This document shows positions 2,881 to 19,900 of a DNA stretch of 20,042 bases, in pieces (position 1 is the stretch's first letter; every line of letters starts with the position of its first letter). Made by a program: the position numbers and the translations under genes. Under the pieces are notes generated by a model. It was not told the origin of the DNA and made no database searches. It was given only the letters and a program-made list of their open reading frames with translations. The DNA comes from a virus, in IMG/VR virus record IMGVR_UViG_3300025759_000935, positions 1 to 20,042 of that record; one strand, given 5' to 3'.

Positions 2881-5099
2881 TGCTCAGGAGATTGATTCAT
2901 TTTCTGAGCGAGCTCCTGCTCTTTGATGTCTAGTTCTCGATCTTTTTGCTCATGCTTCTTGATCATGTCCTGCATCTTCATGCTGTCCTGAGACTCACTA
3001 TTTCTAGACTCTGCTGCAATCAAGGCTAGTTCTATTTCTAGCTGACGATCTTTCTCCTTGTCAATACCCTGCTGTTGGATACCCATCTGCTGTATTTGAG
3101 CTTGTTGCTGCTGAGCCTGTTGTTGTGCTTGCTGTTGCGCTTGCTCAAGTTCTTGTCTAGCTTTCTCCGCCTTCTTAATCTTGCTCTTAATACCTGCGAA
3201 GTTGTCCGTATCGAACATATCTAGAACCTCAGATGCGGGGGTACCGTTCTGAATCATAGCCTGGGCCAAACCTTTAGCTTGTTTGAGCTTCTCTATGTCA
3301 ACTCCTGCGTCAGATACAAATACCCCGTACTCACTCTCCATGTGTTTCATGGAGTCAATATCTACATACTGCATGGTAGAGTCAGGCATTACATACATTC
3401 CTTTCTTACCAGTCAGCCAAGCCTCTTTAGAATAGTCCAGTAGGCCTTGCAGCTCTCGTTGTTCGAAGTTTGCAAACTTGCGGAAGATGTCTTCAGTAAT
3501 GTGAGATGACTGTACAATTGCTTGTTGCGAAGAGCCTTTGCCCTCATACTGCCCGATAGATCCTTGACGTTGTCTATTTACCCCAGAGATTTTCTCCCAC
3601 TCTACTTGTATAGATTCCAATAAGCTGATGTACTGCCCAATAGTCTTAATGGACATGTCTAGAACGGACTGGTGTTGCGGAGATAGTTGCATCCCCTCTT
3701 TGTTATAATCAACCCAGGCAATCCCAGTACCCTCAACGTAGTACATGAACTTATCCATGTCCCACTTCTTGGGGATCATGTTGATATCGAATTGGGCGAT
3801 GATATCTTTAGATCGAGCGATCGCAAGCTCCATGCGGTACTTGAAGATATTATAGTTGAGCTGGTACGGGATGCCTAGGCTGACTATTGAGACGTTATTC
3901 GAGTTGATATCCGAATACTTTCTCCCGTTGACTGGCAGCTTACATCTTGAAGGATTGTCTAGTGACAATCTTTGGTTAGAGACTGGGTTGATATCTACAA
4001 AGAATCTACCATCAATCTTAGTTCCTTTCCATACCTCATTTACCCACTCGTAAGTAACCTTGCCCCCGAGCTCTTTCATTTCGCTAGGCATTCGGTACCC
4101 CTCAGGGGTTTCAAACTCTTCTACTGCTCCGGTAGTTGGGTCCATGTATGATACGAACCCAATTCGCTTTCTACTTTTCCAGTAGACTGTAACGCACTCA
4201 ACTAACCTGTTACGGTAGATGTTATCGTCTGCGCCAGAAGCCTCAGCTCTGTATAGCAGGTATGAGTCTACAGAGGTTTGTTGTGGGTTCTCTAGCTCAA
4301 GGATCTGCGCATCACTTAAGTACTCCCCAAACTGATCAATGATTGTAGATGCGTGAGCAAACTTTCTGACAATGGCCCAATCCCCATCCTCTACAAAATC
4401 AATATCTGGATCTTTGTCGAAGTCGATATCCAGAGGGTTCAGTACGTCGTAGAACGGCTCTCCACGTCGTACACCTTTCTCTGTATAGCATTCTCCAGAT
4501 ACTAGGAAGTGAAAGAATAGTTTCTGCAGCTTGTCGTACACCTCCTCATTTTGGATGATGTAGTTTATAGCATGCTGACCCTTAATCGCTCTATCGTCTA
4601 CGTATGAAGTTTCGAACTGCTCTAGTATCTGCTTAGGGAGTTGATTAGGGTCTAACTGAGACTCTGCCCCAGCATCAGGATCAGATTGCGCTACCATCTG
4701 CTGCGCAAACATCTTCTGGATTGCAGCTATTAGGGTTTGCTTCTTAGCCTCTTCTTTCAAAGAGATTGCATCCCCGTTCTTAACTGCTACTGTAAAGTTT
4801 AGCGGGCGCTTAGCCTTTTCCCCCAGCAACAAGTCTATGATTGGCTTGAGGATGTTGTAGTTGCGGAGCTTTGATGGGAAGTTCTCTCTAGTACGTCCGT
4901 ACGGCTTAAGAACGTACTTGTAGTCCTGCTCATCAATCTCTCCGTTGTAATAGTCGTAGAGGGTCTTGAGATAGTTACGTCGCTCAGATAGCCCGAACTT
5001 CGATAGATTGATGAAAGCATCTACGCATTCTTCTCTCCACTTCTTGGTTTTCTTAGAAAGGGGAAGACGTTGTTGGGGAATCTTATGTGAGCCGTACAT
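2877..5099 (-). CDS. Portal protein
   Basis: 740 residues from ATG at 5099. It is the large protein directly downstream of TerL, the usual place of the portal, the dodecameric ring through which DNA is pumped. Residues about 1-120 carry basic helical sequence and YYNGEIDEQDYKYVLKPYG, a typical portal N-terminal pattern; the middle (about 190-480) is mixed alpha/beta with Gly/Asn-rich turns, and residues about 500-580 contain EWEKISGVNRQRQGSIGQYE, like the stem/clip helix region of phage portals. The last 130 residues are a long Q-rich coiled coil (QQAQQQAQQQQAQIQQM). The length of about 740 matches portals of crAss-like phages. No frameshift was seen. Confidence 0.85.
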   Translation of the reverse strand: MYGSHKIPQQRLPLSKKTKKWREECVDAFINLSKFGLSERRNYLKTLYDYYNGEIDEQDYKYVLKPYGRTRENFPSKLRNYNILKPIIDLLLGEKAKRPLNFTVAVKNGDAISLKEEAKKQTLIAAIQKMFAQQMVAQSDPDAGAESQLDPNQLPKQILEQFETSYVDDRAIKGQHAINYIIQNEEVYDKLQKLFFHFLVSGECYTEKGVRRGEPFYDVLNPLDIDFDKDPDIDFVEDGDWAIVRKFAHASTIIDQFGEYLSDAQILELENPQQTSVDSYLLYRAEASGADDNIYRNRLVECVTVYWKSRKRIGFVSYMDPTTGAVEEFETPEGYRMPSEMKELGGKVTYEWVNEVWKGTKIDGRFFVDINPVSNQRLSLDNPSRCKLPVNGRKYSDINSNNVSIVSLGIPYQLNYNIFKYRMELAIARSKDIIAQFDINMIPKKWDMDKFMYYVEGTGIAWVDYNKEGMQLSPQHQSVLDMSIKTIGQYISLLESIQVEWEKISGVNRQRQGSIGQYEGKGSSQQAIVQSSHITEDIFRKFANFEQRELQGLLDYSKEAWLTGKKGMYVMPDSTMQYVDIDSMKHMESEYGVFVSDAGVDIEKLKQAKGLAQAMIQNGTPASEVLDMFDTDNFAGIKSKIKKAEKARQELEQAQQQAQQQAQQQQAQIQQMGIQQQGIDKEKDRQLEIELALIAAESRNSESQDSMKMQDMIKKHEQKDRELDIKEQELAQKMNQSPEQ

Positions 5100-10934: not shown

Positions 10935-12604
10935 GTGTGCGATGTTAGTACAGCGAGTGAAACACTGCCGGGGTTAGCTAGTACGCCAGTAGGCACGAGC
11001 TGAAACGCCAAGTATGCATTTGCTGAGAATGATGGGTCTGATGCATCTGAGTCGTCAGAGACATTCTTCCAAGATGTCCATCTTACAGTGTATCGGCCCC
11101 CTGCTAAATCACCTCCAGTAGCCTCTGAGTAATAAGTAGAAGTATTGTCTATCCATACATACAGCCTGTATGCATTACCATTGACAGCAGAACCACCCAT
11201 CATAGTACAATCACCAATAGATCCTGCTACAGGAACTGCAAACGCTGAACGATAGTCTCTCGCTGCATTACTTCCAGAAACTTCTGTGGTAGCATTCTGC
11301 ACGAAAAACTTATCGGTAGTTCCCGTGTCAGAGTAGGAGTACGTCTGGAGCATCTTATACCCGCCTCCAGAAGCATCTTGCCATGATGCATTGGTCCCGT
11401 CAGTAGTTAAGACCTGACCAGTAGTACCGCTAGATGCGCTTGTTACGGCATCAAGTGCAGCCTGCTGAGTTGTCTGACCTGTACCCCCATCCCCAATATC
11501 AAGTGTACCAGTAATACTACTAGCCCCGAGATCTACAGCAAGTTCTGTTGACTCAACGACAATACCACCGTTTGCTTTTAGATCTGCACTAAACTCAGTC
11601 CCTGCTAAGTCCAGTCCGTCTCCAGCGGTGTAGGTTGTGTCAGCCTCGTTAGCAAAGGATACAGCACCTGCCCCGTTAGTCTTTAGTATTTGATTAGCAC
11701 TTCCATCTGCAGTCGGGAGGGTGTAGGCGCTTTCTACACTATTAGATGCTGACCCAATAAAGAACTTACCTGTGGTTAGGTTTGGGACATCATTGCTTCT
11801 ACCGATTGCCATTACGACAATCTCCCCGTTGTTGACGTTACTCCTCCCAACTTTACCTACGTTCTGGATAAGATTACTCCCAGTAGGTTTTGTAGCTGTT
11901 AGTCCTCCTGAAGCAGCAACGTACAAAACATCTCCTTCAGAAAAACTAGAGGTATCAACATCTACAAGGCTGCCCATAGTGAGCGCCTTCCCGTTATCAT
12001 TAAGAGAGTAAGCAGCATCTGCTAACCCAATAGATGGCATCTTTGCAGAGTCAGAGGCATCTGCTTTTGCTACAGTAATTCTAGCTTGCCCTACGTTGTA
12101 CCCAGTAATATATAGAGGATCTCCCTTTGCAGCCGCTTCATCGAATCTAACTTCAAGTTCTATTCTCTCAGCGCTTTCAGATGTTCCTGTTCCTGTAGAT
12201 GGGTCTGTGGTAAGGGTAGTGAGATCATTAAATCTCTTGATGGAGTTAATCCCGGTGACTCCTAGGATACTATAAGTCTCCTGGGGGACGTCTATAGTGA
12301 TTGTAGTACGCTCTCCTTTTTGTATTTGGCTCAAGAGTTTTCCTAACTCTCGTACTACGAACTGCTCATCCCCAACATTTACAGATAACTCGACCTGTGC
12401 GTACTCGTACCCCCTAACATTAGTGGTACCTCCGGTAAATGCTGTAAAAGAATTACCGTCCTTAAAGTACAAAGTCACTAACCCTTCTGTGCTAGTGACA
12501 TTCGCTAAGTTTTGTACAGGGGCTGCAAACAGATCTATGTCTGATGCCCCATCTTTTGCAGATCTACTGCTAATTAGCGCCCTATTGAATATGAATAATC
12601 CCAT
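10931..12604 (-). CDS. Virion fibre-like protein
   Basis: 557 residues from ATG at 12604; first gene of the leftward late operon in this window. Residues 1-140 form a mixed domain (starting MGLFIFNRALISSRSAKDG), likely virion attachment. The middle is Gly/Ser/Thr/Ala-rich with short repeats such as ITGTLDIGDGGTGQTTQQ, LKTNGAGAVSFAN and TSGQVL-like turns, typical of trimeric tail or head fibres of aquatic phages (GKFFIGSASNSVESAYTLP style). The C-terminal about 130 residues (from YKMLQTYSYSDTGTTDKFFV) is an aromatic-rich beta domain that could contact the host surface. Whether it is on the tail or head is undecided. No reverse transcriptase or variable-repeat pair is seen nearby. Confidence 0.75.
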   Translation of the reverse strand: MGLFIFNRALISSRSAKDGASDIDLFAAPVQNLANVTSTEGLVTLYFKDGNSFTAFTGGTTNVRGYEYAQVELSVNVGDEQFVVRELGKLLSQIQKGERTTITIDVPQETYSILGVTGINSIKRFNDLTTLTTDPSTGTGTSESAERIELEVRFDEAAAKGDPLYITGYNVGQARITVAKADASDSAKMPSIGLADAAYSLNDNGKALTMGSLVDVDTSSFSEGDVLYVAASGGLTATKPTGSNLIQNVGKVGRSNVNNGEIVVMAIGRSNDVPNLTTGKFFIGSASNSVESAYTLPTADGSANQILKTNGAGAVSFANEADTTYTAGDGLDLAGTEFSADLKANGGIVVESTELAVDLGASSITGTLDIGDGGTGQTTQQAALDAVTSASSGTTGQVLTTDGTNASWQDASGGGYKMLQTYSYSDTGTTDKFFVQNATTEVSGSNAARDYRSAFAVPVAGSIGDCTMMGGSAVNGNAYRLYVWIDNTSTYYSEATGGDLAGGRYTVRWTSWKNVSDDSDASDPSFSANAYLAFQLVPTGVLANPGSVSLAVLTSHT

Positions 12605-12656
12605 CGTTTACTGCTAGACACACCTACCCCCTTGTGTTCTGATTAACATTGAATTT

Positions 12657-12761
12657 CTACTCTACCGTCTTTAGCCTTTGCGGGGACATTTCTATCAGCC
12701 TATAGTCTAACTCCCGCCTAGAGTTTTATATCAATGCACTTTGCGTAGCTATCGGGGACAT
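12657..12761 (-). repeat. Duplicated motif starting two mini-ORFs (MSP...)
   Basis: On the minus strand the string ATGTCCCCG occurs twice, 72 nt apart, each with a purine context (GAG or GAA before ATG). Each opens a tiny frame: 12761 to 12726 (11 residues, MSPIATQSALI) and 12689 to 12657 (10 residues, MSPQRLKTVE). A perfect AACTC/GAGTT stem lies between them at 12709-12725. They sit upstream of the fibre gene and could be leader peptides or part of a structured 5' leader. Translation is unproven. Confidence 0.3.
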
Positions 12762-13026
12762 CTCAACCGCTATGTTCGTCTATTATTACAAGACTGCAGT
12801 CTACAACCCGACTTCTGACCCTCTACTGTCCGTCTGGTCCTCAAGGGTGATAACACATGGGGGTGTTGCCACTTAAGCTGCAAGTATACAAAAAATTATT
12901 GGGGGAAAAATTTTTAGTTGGGGGTATTTTCGAATGCGTGGACCTATATATTCAAAGACCCCACCATACTTGTGGCATTGAACGTATCCCCCTGCAAAAT
13001 TATACGCAGCATGGGATGCGCAACAA

Positions 13027-13113
13027 TACCAGTACACGGCTATACGGTAGCAGTAGATGCGTACCAGCTGTGCAGCACCAGTACCTAGGTGATAGCAGGT
13101 ACCAGTAGCACAG
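13027..13113. repeat. TACCAG direct repeats with an imperfect hairpin
   Basis: TACCAG occurs at 13027, 13062 and 13100 (spacing 35 and 38 nt) within a zone dense in CAG and GTAC. The right part forms an imperfect stem: CTGTGC (13068-13073) with GCACAG (13108-13113) and GTACCT (13081-13086) with AGGTAC (13097-13102). The arrangement of short direct repeats plus a dyad in a non-coding divergent junction could be an origin or a protein-binding array. No known initiator site is recognised. Confidence 0.4.
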
Positions 13114-13153
13114 CGCACAGCCTGTACTATACAGCGCGGCTATGCCTGAGTTT

Positions 13154-13196
13154 AAAATAAATTCAGAGAGCTGCCCTATCCTTCGGCACTATTGCC
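13154..13196 (+). promoter_or_regulatory. Repeated early promoter candidate, copy 1
   Basis: AAAATAAATTCAGAGAG at 13154-13170, then 14 nt, then the dyad GGCA-CTAT-TGCC at 13185-13196, then a leader with CACACAATG and AATCCAAGCAAC directly before the ATG at 13222. The same box, spacing and leader words recur in copy 2. The transcription start probably lies between box and dyad, which would put a small hairpin at the mRNA 5' end. Assignment as a promoter is inferred from recurrence and position. Confidence 0.6.
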
Positions 13197-13221
13197 ACAC
13201 AATGAACATAATCCAAGCAAC

Positions 13222-13575
13222 ATGTTCGATCACTTCGGGGTACGGTTAGTACCCACACTTCGCGGAGCAACTATTGCTCAAATTCGTCTTAAGTATAACC
13301 ACCACATGGCTACGGAAGTAAAGGCTATGGCTAAGGACCTAAACCTTGGTGCATGCAGTTGCTACAATATCCATAGCAAGAAGGGTACTGAGAAGACTGA
13401 GGTTATGTTAGAGTTCGATTCTTCCCCAGATAACTGGTTGAAGTTCTCTGCATTGAAGACCGAGATATCTATCCTCCAGAAGGAGTTGGATATCAAGAGG
13501 CTTCGTAACGTCAGAGCCTCTATTGTAAAGGGCATAGTAGTAGACGACTTTAGCCCTTTCGTTATCAACGATTAA
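13222..13575 (+). CDS. Unknown early protein, 117 residues
   Basis: First rightward gene. I chose ATG at 13222 (MFDHFGVRLVPTLRGATIAQ) rather than the TTG 30 nt upstream because the leader AATCCAAGCAAC-ATG matches that of the gene at 14015, and the upstream extension would overlap the promoter dyad. The sequence has an N-terminal beta/basic segment, a central Cys-containing LNLGACSCYNIHSKK, an acidic EVMLEFDSSPDNWLKFSALK, and a C-terminal helix ISILQKELDIKRLRNVRASI ending in VVDDFSPFVIND. I do not recognise the family. A strong hairpin follows it. Confidence 0.75.
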   Translation: MFDHFGVRLVPTLRGATIAQIRLKYNHHMATEVKAMAKDLNLGACSCYNIHSKKGTEKTEVMLEFDSSPDNWLKFSALKTEISILQKELDIKRLRNVRASIVKGIVVDDFSPFVIND

Positions 13576-13585
13576 TTAGTAACAT

Positions 13586-13619
13586 GAGCCTGCACTATCA
13601 TACATAGTGTGGGCTCTTA
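13586..13619 (+). terminator. Hairpin terminator after the first early gene
   Basis: GAGCCTGCACTAT (13586-13598) pairs with ATAGTGTGGGCTC (13604-13616) around a five-base CATAC loop: 13 pairs, two of them G-T. The tract that follows (TTAATACTCTT) is only weakly T-rich, so termination may be partial and the next small genes may be read through. Confidence 0.55.
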
Positions 13620-13631
13620 ATACTCTTCCCT

Positions 13632-13799
13632 GTGCCTAATAAAGTAACAGGTGAGTTCGTCACTACAAGTGACCTCATCAAAATGGAGGACAAAGAGTTC
13701 CTCTTCAATTCAGCTCCTGATACTAAGGGGTATTACAAATCCTACTGGACTGTTAACCGTGGAGACATAGTGTTCACAGTTCAGAATATCAACCTGTAA
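13632..13799 (+). CDS. Small unknown protein, 55 residues (GTG start)
   Basis: GTG at 13632 (reading MPNKVTGEFVTTSDLIKMED) to TAA at 13797-13799; an internal ATG at 13683 would give 38 residues. The frame is open back to a stop near 13605. The composition looks protein-like, with an aromatic stretch GYYKSYWTVNRGDIVFTV forming beta strands. The stop overlaps the next gene's ATG as TAATG, indicating a coupled pair. The start codon choice is uncertain. No family is recognised and there is no signal or TM segment. Confidence 0.55.
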   Translation: MPNKVTGEFVTTSDLIKMEDKEFLFNSAPDTKGYYKSYWTVNRGDIVFTVQNINL

Positions 13800-13951
13800 T
13801 GAAAGTTCAACGATTCTTCGAACGATTCTTTGCCCTCGCAGCAGTAGCTATGGGGGTAATTGGTATGATCTCTATTGTAAAGGGTGCATACCTACCCGGC
13901 TTGTTCGGGTGTGCAATATCTGGAGTTTTCCTTATTGCAGCGAAAAAATAA
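13799..13951 (+). CDS. Small two-TM membrane protein, 50 residues
   Basis: ATG at 13799 overlapping the previous stop; stop TAA at 13949-13951. MKVQRFFERF is a basic amphipathic start, followed by two hydrophobic segments (about residues 11-27 ALAAVAMGVIGMISIV and 33-47 LFGCAISGVFLIA) and a terminal AAKK. The hairpin topology with a short turn is holin- or excluder-like. Another small membrane protein with the same style of ending (VLSAKK) lies at 14323. Its last codons run into promoter copy 2. Function unknown; membrane association is predicted with good confidence. Confidence 0.65.
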   Translation: MKVQRFFERFFALAAVAMGVIGMISIVKGAYLPGLFGCAISGVFLIAAKK

Positions 13952-13988
13952 TTTCAGAGAGAGATCTCAACCTTTGGGAATATTCCCA
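13945..13988 (+). promoter_or_regulatory. Repeated early promoter candidate, copy 2
   Basis: AAAATAATTTCAGAGA at 13945-13960 (one base different from copy 1 in the core), then 14 nt, then the perfect palindrome TGGGAATATTCCCA at 13975-13988. The leader CACATAATG...AATCCAAGCAAA ends at the ATG at 14015. The box overlaps the end of the preceding small gene. A minimal upstream frame ATGCGTTAA lies at 13993-14001. Confidence 0.6.
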
Positions 13989-14014
13989 CATAATGCGTTA
14001 AAAATCCAAGCAAA

Positions 14015-14278
14015 ATGAACGCATCTATCACCACCAAGATCATCGGCTTTTCACAGTCAGAGACTTACGCCATGATCAAACTTTCTATTAACCCTTTCGA
14101 CGCTGTTGGGCGTACAGTCTATGTTCGTTACAAGGACAACCCTGTAATTGCCGGCAAGAAAGTCGGCGACGAGATCACCATCCCTGGGGGTTGGAAGACT
14201 GTTACTCGTACCGACAAGAAGACCGGTGAGACCTTCAAGTTTTCTGACAGCGTCGAGCAACTGTACCTCACGTACTAA
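14015..14278 (+). CDS. Unknown early protein, 87 residues
   Basis: ATG at 14015 immediately after the conserved AATCCAAGCAAA leader. The product (MNASITTKIIGFSQSETYAM...) is largely beta-stranded, with KLSINPFDAVGRTVYVRYKD, then a Gly/Lys segment IAGKKVGDEITIPGGWKTV and a C-terminal ETFKFSDSVEQLYLTY. The pattern resembles a small OB- or beta-barrel-type domain, but no family is recognised. It has its own promoter candidate and is followed by a strong terminator, so it is a single-gene unit that is probably well expressed. Could be a small nucleic-acid- or host-protein-binding early factor (guess). Confidence 0.75.
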   Translation: MNASITTKIIGFSQSETYAMIKLSINPFDAVGRTVYVRYKDNPVIAGKKVGDEITIPGGWKTVTRTDKKTGETFKFSDSVEQLYLTY

Positions 14279-14288
14279 GTGTTTAACA

Positions 14289-14320
14289 GGGGGACTCTGT
14301 CCCCCTTTAATTCTTTTCTA
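14289..14320 (+). terminator. Rho-independent-type terminator
   Basis: GGGGGAC (14289-14295), TCT loop, GTCCCCC (14299-14305), then TTTAATTCTTTT. A 7-bp G/C stem followed by T-rich sequence ends the 14015 gene; the next ATG is at 14323. Confidence 0.8.
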
Positions 14321-14322
14321 AG

Positions 14323-14529
14323 ATGAAAGATCTTGTCTTCAACATCTACATGACCGCATTGATTAGCCTTGCGGCATTCTTTACATTCTCTGCATTCGTT
14401 GGACTTCCTATCTTAGGATGGGCAAATGAGTTCCATCCTGATACACAAGAGAGATTGTTTATAGTATCTGTCACTGGCGCACTCGTACTTTGTGCAGCTG
14501 GTGCTTTTGTATTATCAGCAAAAAAGTAA
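14323..14529 (+). CDS. Small two-TM membrane protein, 68 residues
   Basis: ATG at 14323. Two hydrophobic segments are visible: about residues 10-31 (MTALISLAAFFTFSAFVGLP) and 45-64 (LFIVSVTGALVLCAAGAFVL), joined by a polar loop WANEFHPDTQER, ending SAKK. It is followed 2 nt later by a small lipoprotein gene, so both may act in the envelope. The ending and hairpin topology recall the 50-residue protein at 13799. Small early phage membrane proteins often change the host envelope or block superinfection, but no specific function is supported. Confidence 0.7.
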   Translation: MKDLVFNIYMTALISLAAFFTFSAFVGLPILGWANEFHPDTQERLFIVSVTGALVLCAAGAFVLSAKK

Positions 14530-14531
14530 CA

Positions 14532-14675
14532 ATGAAGAAACTACTGATCATTTGCATGGCTGGTCTGTTTATGGCTAGCTGTGCAACTCAACATCGTGGG
14601 TATGATTACAAAGCTCACGCTAAACGTAACGCTAAACTTGCTAAGCGTGGTTATAAACCTTGTAACAGGCATTGA
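14532..14675 (+). CDS. Small basic lipoprotein, 47 residues
   Basis: ATG at 14532; a longer frame starting at 14490 would overlap the preceding gene and put residues before the signal, so I use the internal start. MKKLLIICMAGLFMASCATQ is a clear lipoprotein signal (lipobox MASC, Cys17). The mature part is only about 30 residues and very basic (KAHAKRNAKLAKRGYKPCN). It follows the two-TM gene by 2 nt and ends at a strong terminator, so the pair is one transcript. An early exported lipoprotein suggests a surface role such as superinfection immunity; function not known. Confidence 0.7.
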   Translation: MKKLLIICMAGLFMASCATQHRGYDYKAHAKRNAKLAKRGYKPCNRH

Positions 14676-14679
14676 TAGA

Positions 14680-14705
14680 GGGGGACCTTCGGGTTCCCCT
14701 TTTTT
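14680..14705 (+). terminator. Rho-independent terminator with UUCG tetraloop
   Basis: GGGGGACC (14680-14687), TTCG loop closed by C-G, GGTTCCCC (14692-14699), then six T (14700-14705). An 8-bp stem with one G-T pair and an extra-stable loop. Ends the membrane protein/lipoprotein unit. Confidence 0.9.
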
Positions 14706-14710
14706 AGTAG

Positions 14711-14755
14711 AAAATAAATTCAAAGACAGTTCCTTACACTGGCACACTATCATGC
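14711..14755 (+). promoter_or_regulatory. Repeated early promoter candidate, copy 3
   Basis: AAAATAAATTCAAAGA at 14711-14726, directly after a terminator. After 14 nt comes GGCACACTATCATGC (14741-14755), a weaker dyad (GCA...TGC) at the same distance as in copies 1 and 2. Downstream is a 27-nt direct repeat and the leader of the gene at 15007. Confidence 0.55.
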
Positions 14756-14810
14756 ACACACAAGCTCACTACGAAGTCTTGTTACACTATCATGGACACA
14801 CAAGCTGACT
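14744..14810 (+). repeat. Tandem 27-nt repeat carrying two start codons
   Basis: ACACTATCATG-C/G-ACACACAAGCT-C/G-ACT occurs at 14744-14770 and 14784-14810 (40-nt period, two differences). Each copy contains an ATG: 14752 opens an 18-residue frame (MHTQAHYEVLLHYHGHTS) ending at 14808, and 14792 opens a 21-residue frame (MDTQADFYIEIVSESAPYVC, then K) ending at 14857. The CACTATCAT and CAAGCT words also occur downstream of promoter copy 4. This may be a duplicated leader, two micro-genes or a regulatory RNA. Confidence 0.5.
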
Positions 14811-14856
14811 TCTACATAGAAATAGTATCAGAGTCAGCTCCTTACGTGTGCAAATA

Positions 14857-15006
14857 GCGTGAGCATGTTAGCCTGTTTCTCCTCACGCATTTCTACCTCA
14901 TTTTGCTCATCACCCTAAACACACACATACTAGGGTATAGCACTTTCTTGTAGATTGCTCATTTTTCAAAACTCAAATTTTCGCATTTTCAAAATCATTC
15001 ACACGC
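14857..15006 (+). other. Leader region with two dyads before the 15007 gene
   Basis: GCGTGAG (14857-14863) pairs with CTCACGC (14882-14888) across an 18-nt loop; ACCCTA (14912-14917) pairs with TAGGGT (14931-14936) across 13 nt. The rest is AT-rich and C-poor on the right (CATTTTTCAAAACTCAAATT). No convincing ORF. The second dyad could be an operator; neither has a T-tract. Confidence 0.4.
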
Positions 15007-15312
15007 ATGAAAACGTTTAAAGACTTGACATTCATTCCTCACCCAAACGCTGAAGGAGGTAAAGCAGCTTTTATTGACTTTGATAACGGGCGAACCATTT
15101 CAGTTGTCACAGGAAGCAGTTGGTTCTTTACCTCAGATGACAAACCTTACGAGGTTGGCTTTATGAATAAAGACGGGGAGTTGGGTTGCGTATACCTTGA
15201 CAGAGACGATATGTCTGTTGCTCTTGTAGAAGACGCAGATCACAACGATGTAGTAGGATACTGCAACGAAGAAGATGTAACTCTTATCATGGAAGCCATT
15301 CAAAAGCTTTGA
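15007..15312 (+). CDS. Unknown acidic protein, 101 residues
   Basis: ATG at 15007. The product (MKTFKDLTFIPHPNAEGGKA...) is acidic and mainly beta in the first two thirds, with strands around AAFIDFDNGRTISVVTG, SSWFFTSDDKPYEVGFM and GCVYLDRDDMSVALVED, and a final helix EEDVTLIMEAIQKL. The pattern looks like a small beta-barrel/SH3-like domain but no family is recognised. It follows a long non-coding leader and is 3 nt from the next small gene, so the two form one unit. Similar small acidic early proteins often bind host factors; no evidence here. Confidence 0.75.
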   Translation: MKTFKDLTFIPHPNAEGGKAAFIDFDNGRTISVVTGSSWFFTSDDKPYEVGFMNKDGELGCVYLDRDDMSVALVEDADHNDVVGYCNEEDVTLIMEAIQKL

Positions 15313-15315
15313 GTC

Positions 15316-15456
15316 ATGGAAGAGTTACTGTTTCTGAACCTCAAATACATCTTCAAACTGGAGTATGCTCAGACAACAATCTGGGCCATACAACAGGACT
15401 TCGGGAAAGAAGCCGCTGAAGACTTTAAGATTCAATACCAATCGACATTCAATTAA
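15316..15456 (+). CDS. Small protein, 46 residues
   Basis: ATG at 15316, three bases after the stop of the 15007 gene, ending TAA at 15454-15456. The product MEELLFLNLKYIFKLEYAQT continues as an amphipathic helix (IWAIQQDFGKEAAEDFKIQY) and ends STFN. Tight spacing after a real gene and a following hairpin support it. No signal, TM segment or known domain is evident. Likely a soluble helical accessory protein. Confidence 0.65.
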   Translation: MEELLFLNLKYIFKLEYAQTTIWAIQQDFGKEAAEDFKIQYQSTFN

Positions 15457-15463
15457 TGGAGAG

Positions 15464-15492
15464 GCACCCTGCCAACGAGTGGGTGCACTTTT
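15464..15492 (+). terminator. Candidate terminator hairpin
   Basis: GCACCC (15464-15469), an 11-nt loop, GGGTGC (15481-15486), then ACTTTT. A 6-bp G/C stem with a short T-tract; possibly a partial terminator before the 15505 gene. A 12-codon frame spans it but is not convincing. Confidence 0.5.
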
Positions 15493-15504
15493 AACAGAAG
15501 GATC

Positions 15505-16107
15505 ATGAAAAACATGATTAACAGCGGTTCACTCAGCACCCTCAAAGCTGGGAACTCACTCCTCGTTCACGCACGTCGTGTACAAGGTGGTAAATTGCAA
15601 TTGGAGTTGGCAGAGGTCATTACCTCAGCGAATGCTACCCCCAATTTGATTTCCATGTTCAACAAATCCGACTCCCGTTTCTCACAACAGGGTGCACGTC
15701 GGGCTTGGCAATCAGTAGAACCTACTGACGCAAGCGAATTGTTGGGCATTGACTTGTCAGATTCTAACCCCGGTTGGATGACTGATGATCGAGGTCGTGA
15801 GGTTCTTCCTCTGAACATTCTCAACCCATCTGTTGGGGAAGGTTCAGTACTTCGTGTACGTGTGTCAGAGACCACTGTACCTACTCCTTACCAAGCTTCT
15901 AACCTTGAGACAGAGGCTAAGCGTAAGGGTCGTGACGGTGACTTCATCCTGCACAAAGGTCAGTACATCTTCAGTAACACCGAGTTTGCACTCAGCACTC
16001 CAGGTGGTACCGTAGACCATGTACTTTTGGAGGCTGATGCTGCACCTGCAGCTGGTGTCACTCAGACACAAGCCGCCTCAAGTCCTTTTACGGACATTAA
16101 CTCGTAA
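15505..16107 (+). CDS. Unknown 200-residue protein (possible ssDNA-binding role)
   Basis: ATG at 15505, but a Shine-Dalgarno-like AGAAGGA (15496-15502) is only two bases away; the second ATG at 15514 gives 11-nt spacing and may be used. The product has a beta-rich N-terminus (GSLSTLKAGNSLLVHARRV, GKLQLELAEVI), a polar middle with RRAWQSVEPTDASELLGIDL, a charged EAKRKGRDGDFILHKGQYIF region and an Ala/Thr-rich C-terminal tail ending AASSPFTDINS. The layout (beta core, flexible tail) and place before DNA polymerase could fit a single-stranded DNA-binding protein, but the tail lacks the usual acidic DDIPF end, so this is speculative. Confidence 0.7.
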   Translation: MKNMINSGSLSTLKAGNSLLVHARRVQGGKLQLELAEVITSANATPNLISMFNKSDSRFSQQGARRAWQSVEPTDASELLGIDLSDSNPGWMTDDRGREVLPLNILNPSVGEGSVLRVRVSETTVPTPYQASNLETEAKRKGRDGDFILHKGQYIFSNTEFALSTPGGTVDHVLLEADAAPAAGVTQTQAASSPFTDINS

Positions 16108-16118
16108 GAGTTACAAGG

Positions 16119-16142
16119 TGTAGGGGGTTGAACTCCCCTACA
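16119..16142 (+). terminator. Hairpin downstream of the 15505 gene
   Basis: TGTAGGGG (16119-16126), loop GTTGAACT, CCCCTACA (16135-16142), a perfect 8-bp stem followed by TCTTC. Most likely the terminator of the 15505 gene; it may alternatively be the first helix of the structured RNA that follows. Confidence 0.65.
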
Positions 16143-16690
16143 TCTTCACATGCGGCTATTAACCGCTAGTGTGCCACACATGAGAGAAGCAGAGTGATAA
16201 CTGCAGTGGAAAGCATGCCCGTAAGGCGTACGTGCTATCAGATTTTCAGGATACCTGTTAGACTATGAAACATTAGCGCCAGCTAAAGGTGGAGTCATCC
16301 TTGAGATAGCAGGAGTCTGGCGTACGTCGGGGCATTAACTTATTAAAGACAGACAGCGAGCTATACAACCAAGAAGTTGGGCAGCCTAAGCCTCAACTGA
16401 GGATGCTTGTTGTTAAAAACCTCTGAGAGTAAATCAGGGGTTGCTACAGTTGGTTACTGTAGTATCTGCAGCTAGAGTCGCGACTAGTAAACGCGGAGAA
16501 AGATGGACTAACCGCCCGAGATATGTGTAAGTACAGCATATCTGCTAAAATTGTGCTTAACAGTGCCAAACATACTGTAATCCTGAACTAGTTGTCTACT
16601 AGTATCAGGTGGCTATTATACGTTGCTTGGATATAACGTAGAGCTTCACCTTGAGCATTTGCACTTGTTGCATTTGCTCATAGGTGTTGC
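16143..16690 (+). ncRNA. Candidate large structured non-coding RNA
   Basis: About 550 nt without a plausible ORF but full of helices on the plus strand: GCGG/CCGC (16152-16166); a three-way junction closed by TGCTATC (16233-16239)/GATAGCA (16305-16311) that encloses CAGG/CCTG (16247-16257) and GACT/AGTC (16261-16296) capped by TTAGC/GCTAA (16273-16286); CCTC/GAGG (16391-16402); AACCTCTGA/TCAGGGGTT (16418-16442); CTACAGT/ACTGTAG (16444-16462); AGATATG/CATATCT (16519-16543); CCTGAACTAGT/ACTAGT-A-TCAGG (16582-16609); TACGTT/AACGTA (16619-16640); and a layered hairpin CACCT, GAGCA, GCA with their partners (16647-16686). Size, ornate folding and location near tRNAs in a phage recall the GOLLD/ROOL class of large ornate RNAs, but I cannot assign a family. 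Ends are approximate. Confidence 0.7.
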
Positions 16691-16692
16691 TT

Positions 16693-16738
16693 AAAATAAA
16701 TTCAAAAACAATCCCTAACCTCGAGCTCATCACGGAGC
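16693..16738 (+). promoter_or_regulatory. Repeated early promoter candidate, copy 4
   Basis: AAAATAAATTCAAAAA at 16693-16708, immediately after the last hairpin of the structured RNA, then the dyad GCTC-ATCACG-GAGC at 16725-16738. CACTATCATCAAGCT follows at 16752, echoing the repeat at 14744. It would drive the small gene at 16789 and the DNA polymerase. Confidence 0.55.
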
Positions 16739-16788
16739 ATCATTATTTGTTCACTATCATCAAGCTAATCTCTTGCCCTATGGGACAC

Positions 16789-17010
16789 ATGAAAAATATC
16801 TACATGCTAATGAAGCAAGATCGTATCGAAGGTCTTTCAACAGCGTATAACAAAGCTATTGATGCTGGAGAGGATTCCTTTATATTTGGGGGGCAATCCT
16901 ACACAATCCAGTATGCTAGCACAATTTTGAACTATGCACACAAAAATCCACTTCATTTCCCAGACTCAAGACCTAACTCACAAGGAGAACCTGAACCTGT
17001 CGACGATTGA
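16789..17010 (+). CDS. Small unknown protein overlapping the polymerase gene
   Basis: 73 residues from ATG at 16789 (MKNIYMLMKQDRIEGLSTAY). An ATG at 16780 adds three residues; a TTG at 16684 would run through the promoter box and is rejected. The core GLSTAYNKAIDAGEDSFIFGGQ followed by YTIQYASTILNYAHKN reads as a compact helix-hairpin-helix-like unit I have the impression is common in small phage proteins, but I cannot name it. The last 77 nt overlap the start of DNA polymerase in another frame, so the two are translationally linked. The Pro/Glu-rich tail (NSQGEPEPVDD) lies in the overlap. Confidence 0.65.
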   Translation: MKNIYMLMKQDRIEGLSTAYNKAIDAGEDSFIFGGQSYTIQYASTILNYAHKNPLHFPDSRPNSQGEPEPVDD

Positions 17011-18844
17011 ACAGTGCGTAGAGTACTGTAAGACTAAGCAGGTTCTTGGGGTAGATACTGAGACTGAAGGTTTCGACTTCACCTGTAAGAAGATGATCAT
17101 GTTTCAGATCGGGGATCTTGAACAGCAGTTCGTTATTGATACACGCTTTGTATCTATCGAGCCGCTACGAGAGGTCCTTGAGTCAGAGACAATAGTCAAG
17201 ATCTTTCACAACGCTAAGTTTGACTACAAGTTCATCAAGATGTGGGCTGGGATCAAAACCAGATGCATCTACGACACGTTCTTAGTGGAGAAAGTCCTGA
17301 ACTGTGGTAAAGCAGACTACGGGTATTCTCTGGCTAAGCTGTGTGACAGGTACCTGAACGTAGAGTTGGACAAGTCGACACGTAATCAGTTTGTTGGGTT
17401 AGTTGGGCAACCATATTCAGTTCAACAGATTGTGTACGGTGCTAAGGACGTTGAGTATTTGATTCAACTACGACAGCATCAGCTCCCTAAGATTACAGAG
17501 TTGGAGTTGGGTATGATTGTAGATCTGGAGAATGAAGCTGTGGTTGCGTTCTCAGAGATTGAGTACGAAGGTCTGATGGTAGACAAGGATGCATGGACTG
17601 AGCTTGCTAAAGACAATGTCAAGGCAGCTAAGGATGCTGAACTACTACTAGATGACTACGTGCTTGCTGATCAACGACTACAGCATTACAAACTCCCAAT
17701 ACAAGCTGATCTCTTTACACCGCAAGAGGAGCTCAGAAAGACTCACATCAATTGGAACTCACCTAGTCAGATACTAGAGCTGTTCCAGAATCTAGAACCC
17801 AAACTAGAGGATGTGAATGGGAAGAAGCTGTACAAGTTTAGACGTAAGCACACGCTTATTGACCAGTACGTTAAGTACAAGGAGAAGTCTAAGCTTGCTA
17901 ATGCGTACGGTACAAGCTTCTTCAAGTTTGTAAGCTGTGATGGGAGGGTACACACGAACTTTCAACAGATCCTAGATACAGGTAGGGTTAGTTCTAGTTC
18001 CCCAAACATGCAGCAGATACCTTCGGATAACAAGTACCGTAATTGTTTCATAGCACCTGAAGGGTGGGTGTTTGTTAGTTCAGACTACTCATCTCAGGAG
18101 CTAAACGTTATTGCTTATGGTAGTCAAGATCCTGTGTTTCTATCTGCTCTACAGAATAATCAAGATCTGCACTCTGTATGTGCTGATTTGGTTTTCGGAC
18201 AGGAATGGGTAGATGCAGCTGAACCTGACTGTGCTTACATGAAGTCGAAAGCTAAGTGCAATTGTAAAAAGCACAAGCAGCTTCGTACTTCTGTAAAGAC
18301 AATCAACTTTGGATTGGCTTATGGTATGGGTCCGCACAAGCTGGCTGATACCTTGGACATATCTAAGAAGGAGGCAGAAGAACTAATCGAAAAATACTTT
18401 CAAGCCTTCCCATCTATCAAGAGCTTCTTGGATTCTCTTGGGGACTTTGGGAAACGTAGAGGGTATATCCGTACGTTCAGACCATACAAACGTAGACGCT
18501 GGTTTAGTAACTGGTACCCACGTATGTATGACAATCGTTCAGCAATGATTGAGCTCGGCTCTATTGAGAGAGCATCTAAGAATACCCCTATACAGGGTAG
18601 CTCAGCTGATATGACAAAGCTCGCACTAGTGAAGATCTTCAACGAGGTCAATACTTCACAGTGGGCGGGGGATGTCAAGATTGTTATGACTGTGCACGAT
18701 CAGATAGATACTATCTGTAGAGAGGGTGTAGCTGAGCAGTGGAAAGAGAGAATGACAGAGCTGATGGAGGAAGCTGCTAAGGTTATAATCAAGAACGGGC
18801 TGCTCAAGGCAGACACTAACATCTCTAAGACTTGGGAGAAGTAA
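16934..18844 (+). CDS. polA: Family A DNA polymerase with 3'-5' exonuclease
   Basis: 636 residues from ATG at 16934, the only ATG before the exonuclease domain. Exo motifs: VLGVDTETEGF (Asp41, Glu43), FHNAKFD (Asp97) and YGAKDVEY (Tyr168, Asp172), so proofreading should be active. Polymerase motifs: DTGRVSSSSPNMQQIP (348-363), motif A SSDYSSQEL (Asp384), motif B KTINFGLAYGMG (Lys455-Gly466), SPIQGSSADM-like TPIQGSSADM (551-560), and motif C VHDQ (587-590), where the usual Glu of HDE is Gln. A Cys/Lys-rich insertion (CAYMKSKAKCNCKKHK, 433-448) precedes motif B. There is no 5'-3' exonuclease domain, as in many phage PolAs. It is the replicative polymerase of this phage. Confidence 0.92.
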   Translation: MHTKIHFISQTQDLTHKENLNLSTIEQCVEYCKTKQVLGVDTETEGFDFTCKKMIMFQIGDLEQQFVIDTRFVSIEPLREVLESETIVKIFHNAKFDYKFIKMWAGIKTRCIYDTFLVEKVLNCGKADYGYSLAKLCDRYLNVELDKSTRNQFVGLVGQPYSVQQIVYGAKDVEYLIQLRQHQLPKITELELGMIVDLENEAVVAFSEIEYEGLMVDKDAWTELAKDNVKAAKDAELLLDDYVLADQRLQHYKLPIQADLFTPQEELRKTHINWNSPSQILELFQNLEPKLEDVNGKKLYKFRRKHTLIDQYVKYKEKSKLANAYGTSFFKFVSCDGRVHTNFQQILDTGRVSSSSPNMQQIPSDNKYRNCFIAPEGWVFVSSDYSSQELNVIAYGSQDPVFLSALQNNQDLHSVCADLVFGQEWVDAAEPDCAYMKSKAKCNCKKHKQLRTSVKTINFGLAYGMGPHKLADTLDISKKEAEELIEKYFQAFPSIKSFLDSLGDFGKRRGYIRTFRPYKRRRWFSNWYPRMYDNRSAMIELGSIERASKNTPIQGSSADMTKLALVKIFNEVNTSQWAGDVKIVMTVHDQIDTICREGVAEQWKERMTELMEEAAKVIIKNGLLKADTNISKTWEK

Positions 18845-19766: not shown

Positions 19767-19900
19767 GTCAAGGTGGCGGAATTGGTAACGCCTGTGGGTT
19801 AGCTACCACAGAAAAAAGGAAAGGTTATAAATGTTTTTGACAAGTGTACATAGTCTTAAACTACCGACCCCGATTGCAGGTTCGAGTCCTGCCCTTGACA
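19767..19900 (+). tRNA. Oversized tRNA-like gene (Leu-like, about 50 nt insert)
   Basis: 134 nt, five bases after the previous one. Acceptor GTCAAGG/CCTTGAC, D-arm GGCGGAATTGGTAACGCC (leucine-like) and T-arm GCAGG-TTCGAGT-CCTGC are all perfect, discriminator A. After the D-arm comes CTGTGG-GTTAGCTA-CCACAG (19792-19811), a 6-bp stem with an 8-nt loop instead of 7, then about 60 nt of A/T-rich sequence including AGTCTTAAACT, which contains a UAA (Leu) anticodon-like triplet in a CTTAAAC context. An intron or insertion in the anticodon region of a Leu tRNA is the simplest reading. Exact splice points cannot be set by eye. Confidence 0.6.

Follow-up and report, generated by a model that had tools for sequence, protein, structure and literature searches.

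Few viruses of the human gut are as abundant as the crAss-like phages, which deliver an RNA polymerase of their own into the host cell. In phi14:2, transcription of the early modules is rifampicin-resistant and driven by the virion RNA polymerase (vRNAP) (PMC10136315), and late genes probably use the host RNA polymerase (RNAP) (PMC10136315, PMC8375218); published transcription data for phi14:2 and crAss001 are at module level only. Promoters for polymerases carried in the virion are described from P23-45 (PMC10770324) and N4 (PMC4496689). Our literature search, which did not cover Drobysheva et al. 2021, found no description of a start motif for a crAss-like vRNAP. Here we describe a short element with a downstream hairpin that is repeated ahead of the early genes in positions 1 to 20,042 of IMG/VR record IMGVR_UViG_3300025759_000935 (the window, a stretch of 20,042 nucleotides (nt)). 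We think it probable that these elements are early promoters of a crAss-like phage, read by a polymerase that is injected along with the DNA.

The 20-kb IMG/VR fragment that forms the window spans the point at which gene direction turns: late genes run leftward and early genes rightward. It encodes a crAss-like capsid, portal and terminase (portal and capsid as PHROGs matches), and on the evidence of these three genes its phage belongs to the Crassvirales. The closest terminase in GenBank is that of Buchavirus cr60_1 (42% identical), and the other terminase matches are to crAss-like and allied phages of Bacteroidota (Bacteroides, Flavobacterium, Cellulophaga); a nucleotide search of GenBank phages with the window gave no related record. 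L085 is nearly the same phage (99.9%); more distantly related are L086, L092 and L088/L006 (contig G002).

An early-strand element and its copies

L092 and G002 have a core in common, TCARAGA-N6-CTAW-N2-YCGG-like and then a dyad; in G002 it reads TTTTTTTTTTCAAAGACTCCTCCTATAGTTCGG, followed by the perfect dyad TGATTAC-G-GTAATCA. Scanning the relatives for this core revealed an element, P0, that occurs once in most of them, directly at the junction of late (−) and early (+) genes. The consensus of 40 non-redundant P0s outside the window lineage is TTTGTGAGCGTGTGAACCAACACAATCAAAGACCCC-NN-CTATGTT-N-CG, in which CAAAGACCCC is nearly invariant, and an open reading frame (ORF) starts within 300 nt downstream in 38 of the 40 (median 56 nt). 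We rejected P0 as coding sequence because stops interrupt its reading frames in different relatives. With the same 40 P0s, nhmmer matched 12927–12992 (+) of the window (E=6e-9), which is the first element on the early side of the junction and carries TTCAAAGA at 12951–12958, then CCCC.

Within the window, the first-pass annotation had reported four AT-rich boxes, at 13154, 13945, 14711 and 16693, each ahead of a plus-strand unit and none before the late minus-strand genes. These positions were confirmed: at up to three mismatches the box matches four times, always on the plus strand and never on the late strand. The box pattern alone is modest evidence because it is AT-rich, and shuffled windows, with a mean of 0.45 matches, also reach four in 2 of 100 shuffles. 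With the window left out, we trained a 34-nt matrix solely on the relatives L086, L092 and G002; it had its six best window sites at 13154, 14711, 12943, 14819, 16693 and 13945, all on the plus strand between 12943 and 16852. Their scores were 17.7–28.5, compared to 10.5 for the next-best site, 12.2 in the reversed window, and Markov-shuffle maxima with a mean of 13.0 and a largest value of 20.5. The four boxes are among these six; the annotation's count was incomplete in that P0, to which the site at 12943 belongs, and a degenerate copy at 14819–14852 had been overlooked.

The box as first written, AAAATAAATTCARAGA, did not hold as the core of the family and was rejected, since its AAAATA part is missing outside the window lineage, where the conserved part is TCAAAGA-N6-CTA. 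Judged from this comparison, the AAAATA portion is lineage-specific and the ancestral core is not the AT-rich box; P0 is the ancestral, family-wide copy and copies 1–4 its duplicates. A search of IMG/VR with the extended box gave one outside match (L165), with no second match there and a different context, which we took as chance.

We scanned segments of up to 4.5 kb, each beginning at a loose P0-like match, with a regular expression for the core. It matched 44 times on the early strand, a figure in which the P0s themselves are counted, along with repeats where segments overlap, versus 4 times on the reverse strand and 7 times in two-strand reversed controls; distinct second copies of the core were found in L168, L170, L200, L023, G011 and G002. 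When full contigs of relatives that bear P0 were scanned with a matrix built from the 40 P0s, P0 ranked first in every one tested, always in an intergenic position and usually with a wide margin over the rest. The matrix drew on most of these same contigs, and the informative part is that P0 has no near rival in 35–87 kb. On the window, which was not in the training set, the same matrix placed P0 first and copy 1 second. The motif is thus not equally frequent in coding and late regions, the finding that by the annotation's own terms would have refuted the proposal. The motif search in relatives that the annotation had called for finds the motif confined to the early strand and to early intergenic regions, and conserved before the first early gene.

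Given this early-strand confinement, the intergenic position, the duplication before early units and the conservation upstream of the first early gene, we regard P0 and its duplicates as a strongly supported candidate family of early promoters, in line with the original proposal. In the window phage the early gene clusters are each preceded by a short signal and a hairpin, and in dozens of relatives a stronger, conserved version stands alone where the early genes begin. P0 also lies where gene direction turns and near the point at which the GC skew flips sign, and a single copy per genome at a divergent junction, as in most relatives, could mark a replication origin, a packaging site or an operator. 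Such a role seems very improbable, as the duplicates lie before individual early genes, always co-oriented with the gene, and the fixed short distance to the ORF start fits transcription better.

Copy 1 (13154–13196, +) consists of the box at 13154–13169, CTAT at 13176–13179 and the hairpin GGCACTATTGCC at 13185–13196, and is followed by the first early ORF (13222–13575, +; ATG at 13222, 117 aa, no family match). Copy 2 (13945–13988, +) overlaps the stop codon of ORF 13799–13951; its box at 13945–13960 and palindrome TGGGAATATTCCCA at 13975–13988 precede the ATG of an 87-aa ORF at 14015. The leader AATCCAAGCAA ahead of the ATG is, as had been noted, common to copies 1 and 2, and in L086 their two orthologues have AAACCAAACATC and AAACCAAACAAA ahead of the ATG. 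Copy 3 (14711–14757, +) has its box at 14711–14726, right behind a terminator-like hairpin, with a weak dyad from 14741 and the next ATG at 15007. The degenerate copy 3b (14819–14852, +) is the fourth best window site (score 18.9 with a matrix trained without it) and occupies the place orthologous to L086 993 (−). In copy 4 (16693–16738, +) the box at 16693–16708 is followed by CTAA at 16715–16718 and a hairpin at 16725–16738; downstream lie the ATG of a small ORF at 16780 and then a family A DNA polymerase (16934–18844). L086 retains copies 1, 2 and 3 at the same places (2585, 1867 and 1096, all −) and has one extra, with letters varying within the AT box.

The surroundings of the copies hold further features on the plus strand. 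Between P0 and copy 1, 12990–13150 is hairpin-rich and noncoding, and L086 has similar repeats of changed sequence. A repeated element, approximately CACTATCAT-N6-CAAGCTNACTNC, occurs twice in tandem past copy 3 (14744–14812) and in part past copy 4 (16751–16770), and is also found in relatives, L086 and L092. Between ORF 15505–16107 and copy 4, about 580 nt (16110–16690) are without a clear gene and seemingly rich in inverted repeats, possibly a noncoding RNA. Further on, 19767–19900 has an Rfam tRNA match over 134 nt that ARAGORN did not report, which may be read as a tRNA interrupted by some 60 nt of inserted sequence or intron.

The hairpin and the late side of the junction

According to the annotation, the dyad of copies 1–3 begins exactly 15 nt after the end of the box. 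The dyads are present, but the spacing is 14–16 nt: 15 nt in copy 1, 14 nt in copy 2 (15 to GGG) and 16 nt in copy 4, whose dyad, GCTC-ATCACG-GAGC, begins at 16725 as described; that of copy 3 is weak. Taken singly, the window dyads are no stronger than shuffles (z-scores unremarkable), and we dropped individual dyad strength as evidence; the register alone is significant. Pairing begins 5–7 nt past CTA at 29 of 49 sites, versus 15±2.8 with the downstream sequence shuffled (largest value among 200 shuffles, 23), and the probability of 5′-arm pairing rises from 0.20 to 0.60 at nt 6 past CTA. As in promoters of the N4 type, the inverted repeat keeps a fixed register relative to the recognition sequence. 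Stem sequences differ among sites (GATAA/TTATC, GGGCT/AGCCC, GGGG/CCCC), so it is structure and not sequence that is kept.

The fixed register fits an RNA that starts at or just before a 5′ hairpin, in agreement with the mRNA hairpin proposed in the annotation, and it fits equally well a DNA hairpin that is part of the promoter. It could also be due to P0 being an RNA element, that is, the 5′ leader structure of a transcript starting further upstream, copied before several early genes; the fixed register, the strand specificity, the conservation outside coding sequence and the placement of the copies 40–280 nt ahead of genes would all suit such a leader. However, conservation is strongest in blocks of unpaired linear sequence that precede the hairpin, and the copies follow terminators or differ in their surroundings, so that each would need its own promoter, while a host-type −7 box was not found upstream on the P0 strand. 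We consider a leader of this kind decidedly unlikely.

The Bacteroidetes −7 element TAnnTTTG accompanies P0 at a distance of up to 100 nt on the late strand in 34 of 40 cases and on the early strand of the same segment in 1 of 40, with 3.5 expected. Because of this asymmetry, the junction appears to combine promoters of two different types, placed back to back. In the window the putative −7 element of the late promoter lies at 12881–12888 (−) and reads TATACTTG, which is TAnnTTTG with one mismatch, and the exact element is present in L086 (TAGCTTTG) and L092 (TACCTTTG). A host-type element on the late side only agrees with the published scheme in which vRNAP transcribes early and host RNAP late genes (PMC10136315, PMC8375218).

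The same counts bear on whether P0 and the boxes are themselves promoters for host RNAP and its main sigma factor, possibly helped by an activator of phage or host origin that binds the conserved upstream block. Host RNAP is always present, and P0 resembles a Bacteroidetes main-sigma promoter in being AT-rich and upstream of genes and in its CTATNTTWCG, which is loosely like TAnnTTTG (at best 7 of 8 letters agree, as in TAGCTTTC). Yet the exact −7 box is not a feature of P0 on the transcribed early strand and is found instead on the opposite, late strand, whose 34 of 40 indicates that, where these phages rely on host promoters, they retain the consensus. Together with the rifampicin resistance of early transcription in phi14:2 (PMC10136315), this makes host recognition of P0 unlikely in our view.

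Further into the late side, 12600–12860 (−) is conserved in the 45 loci compared and has a predicted RNA fold of 38 pairs, 17 of them with compensatory changes. It has no Rfam match and is a candidate structured 5′ leader RNA of crAss-like late operons.

The polymerase and similar elements in named phages

G002 encodes a 2544-aa protein that matches the phi14:2 vRNAP (6VR4; E=1e-15) and bears the catalytic motif SDFDIDKM (DFDID). Six other long P0 contigs (G010, G011, G013, G018, G019 and G021) have an RNAP homologue with E-values of 1e-92 to 1e-127, and G009, where no P0 was found, has a weak match only. The crAss-like vRNAP invoked in the annotation thus has a homologue in all near-complete P0-bearing contigs, which are relatives of the window. 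The G002 homologue (L204 7967–15601) has a NADAR domain (PF08719) just past the catalytic motif. In seven long relative contigs we did not find a phage-encoded sigma factor: sigma region 2 (PF04542) had no match and sigma region 4 (PF08281) one match below cut-off. T7-like RNAP (PF00940) had no match in the seven contigs or in the control genomes, and the search with PF05183 was uninformative, its controls being without a match.

Similar elements are present in named phages. Across 428 kb from named Crassvirales and allied phages, the pattern CCCC-N9..19-GGGG-N3..6-CCCC has 6 matches (0.05 expected; none for the mirrored pattern). All six are on the early strand, either at the late/early junction or close to it, with none elsewhere. 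They are in phi14:2, crAss001, cr112_1, cr126_1, cr108_1 and cr50_1; because the pattern was written after reading the phi14:2 and crAss001 junctions by eye, independent evidence comes from the other four records, and crAss001 and cr112_1 belong to one genus. The GGGG-N3..6-CCCC hairpin lies near 98010–98045 in phi14:2 and near 128–165 on the minus strand in crAss001. In cr108_1 the element is inside a small annotated ORF adjoining the junction, and in cr50_1 it reads GCGAGGACCAGTACAATATCAAGTCCCC and closely resembles marine P0. The P0 matrix had no match in phi14:2 or crAss001. A profile of marine P0s ranked cr50_1 first (E 2.4) and phi14:2 second among 14 records; because these E-values are not significant, order-wide homology between P0 and the CCCC-GGGG-CCCC elements is suggestive only. 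A profile that included its own target sequences was circular and was not used. The early region of phi14:2 (L242, about 4000–4500) also contains an unannotated tmRNA-like sequence, GGGGTCGACTGGTTTTGA ... CCCCCCGACTCCACT.

Recognition of the P0 family by the vRNAP is our best reading, and we infer it as somewhat more probable than its alternatives taken together. The polymerase, possibly with partner subunits, would recognise the two-block element TCAAAGA-(N6)-CTAT, which in P0 is preceded by a further conserved block, TTTGTGAGCGTGTGAACCA. Transcription would start a few nt past CTAT, which would place the 5′ end of the RNA at the hairpin or immediately ahead of it, and the hairpin could protect this end or aid promoter escape.

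Several points weigh against this proposal. The window, as a fragment of 20 kb, does not include the RNAP gene region, and the start position is predicted from sequence. About 60 nt of conservation exceeds what many promoters need, and the dyad of copy 3 at 14741 is GCA/TGC only. Among the named phages, the marine profile falls short of significance, and the CCCC-GGGG-CCCC pattern has no match in cr124_1, ProJPt-Bp1 or crAssphage O-152.

It is possible, if doubtful, that the elements form a promoter class common to the whole order, in which a DNA hairpin, extruded at a fixed distance, is itself part of what the two-barrel vRNAP recognises; if true, this would mean convergent use of hairpin promoters by the unrelated injected RNA polymerases of N4 and crAss-like phages. 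With its defined core, upstream block and hairpin, the candidate makes promoter recognition by the vRNAP directly testable, and the similar elements at the corresponding position of phi14:2 and crAss001 extend this to cultured phages. The motif would also let early genes be annotated in uncultured crAss-like genomes.

Comparison with known systems

One of the closest systems is that of phi14:2 gp66 (6VR4), whose polymerase is homologous to that of the P0-bearing relatives and whose late and early genes have the same divergent layout. At its junction, upstream of g111, phi14:2 has CCCCC-N16-GGGG-AGTAT-CCCC, an element that has diverged from P0 (profile E=5.7).

In N4 (Schitoviridae), a virion RNAP uses a small number of early promoters, grouped at one end of the early region, and these combine a conserved linear sequence with an inverted repeat in fixed register (PMC4496689), much as in the P0 family. 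However, the N4 vRNAP is T7-like, unlike the two-barrel RNAP of the P0-bearing relatives, and the N4 hairpin, a GC-rich heptamer centred at −11 with inverted-repeat flanks, is a recognised element upstream of +1 (PMC4496689), whereas the P0 hairpin is variable in sequence and at the downstream end. Given this difference in the predicted polymerase, membership of the P0 family in the N4 class cannot be claimed.

P23-45 has in gp96 a virion RNAP of the same general type, a single-chain two-barrel enzyme related to cellular RNAPs, and its pre-early promoters are a short AT-rich motif conserved in relatives that carry the RNAP (PMC10770324). They differ from P0 in sequence, no fixed hairpin is described for them, and their starts are mapped (PMC10770324). 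By analogy, the P0 family would work like the P23-45 pre-early promoters and, in its registered inverted repeat, like those of N4.

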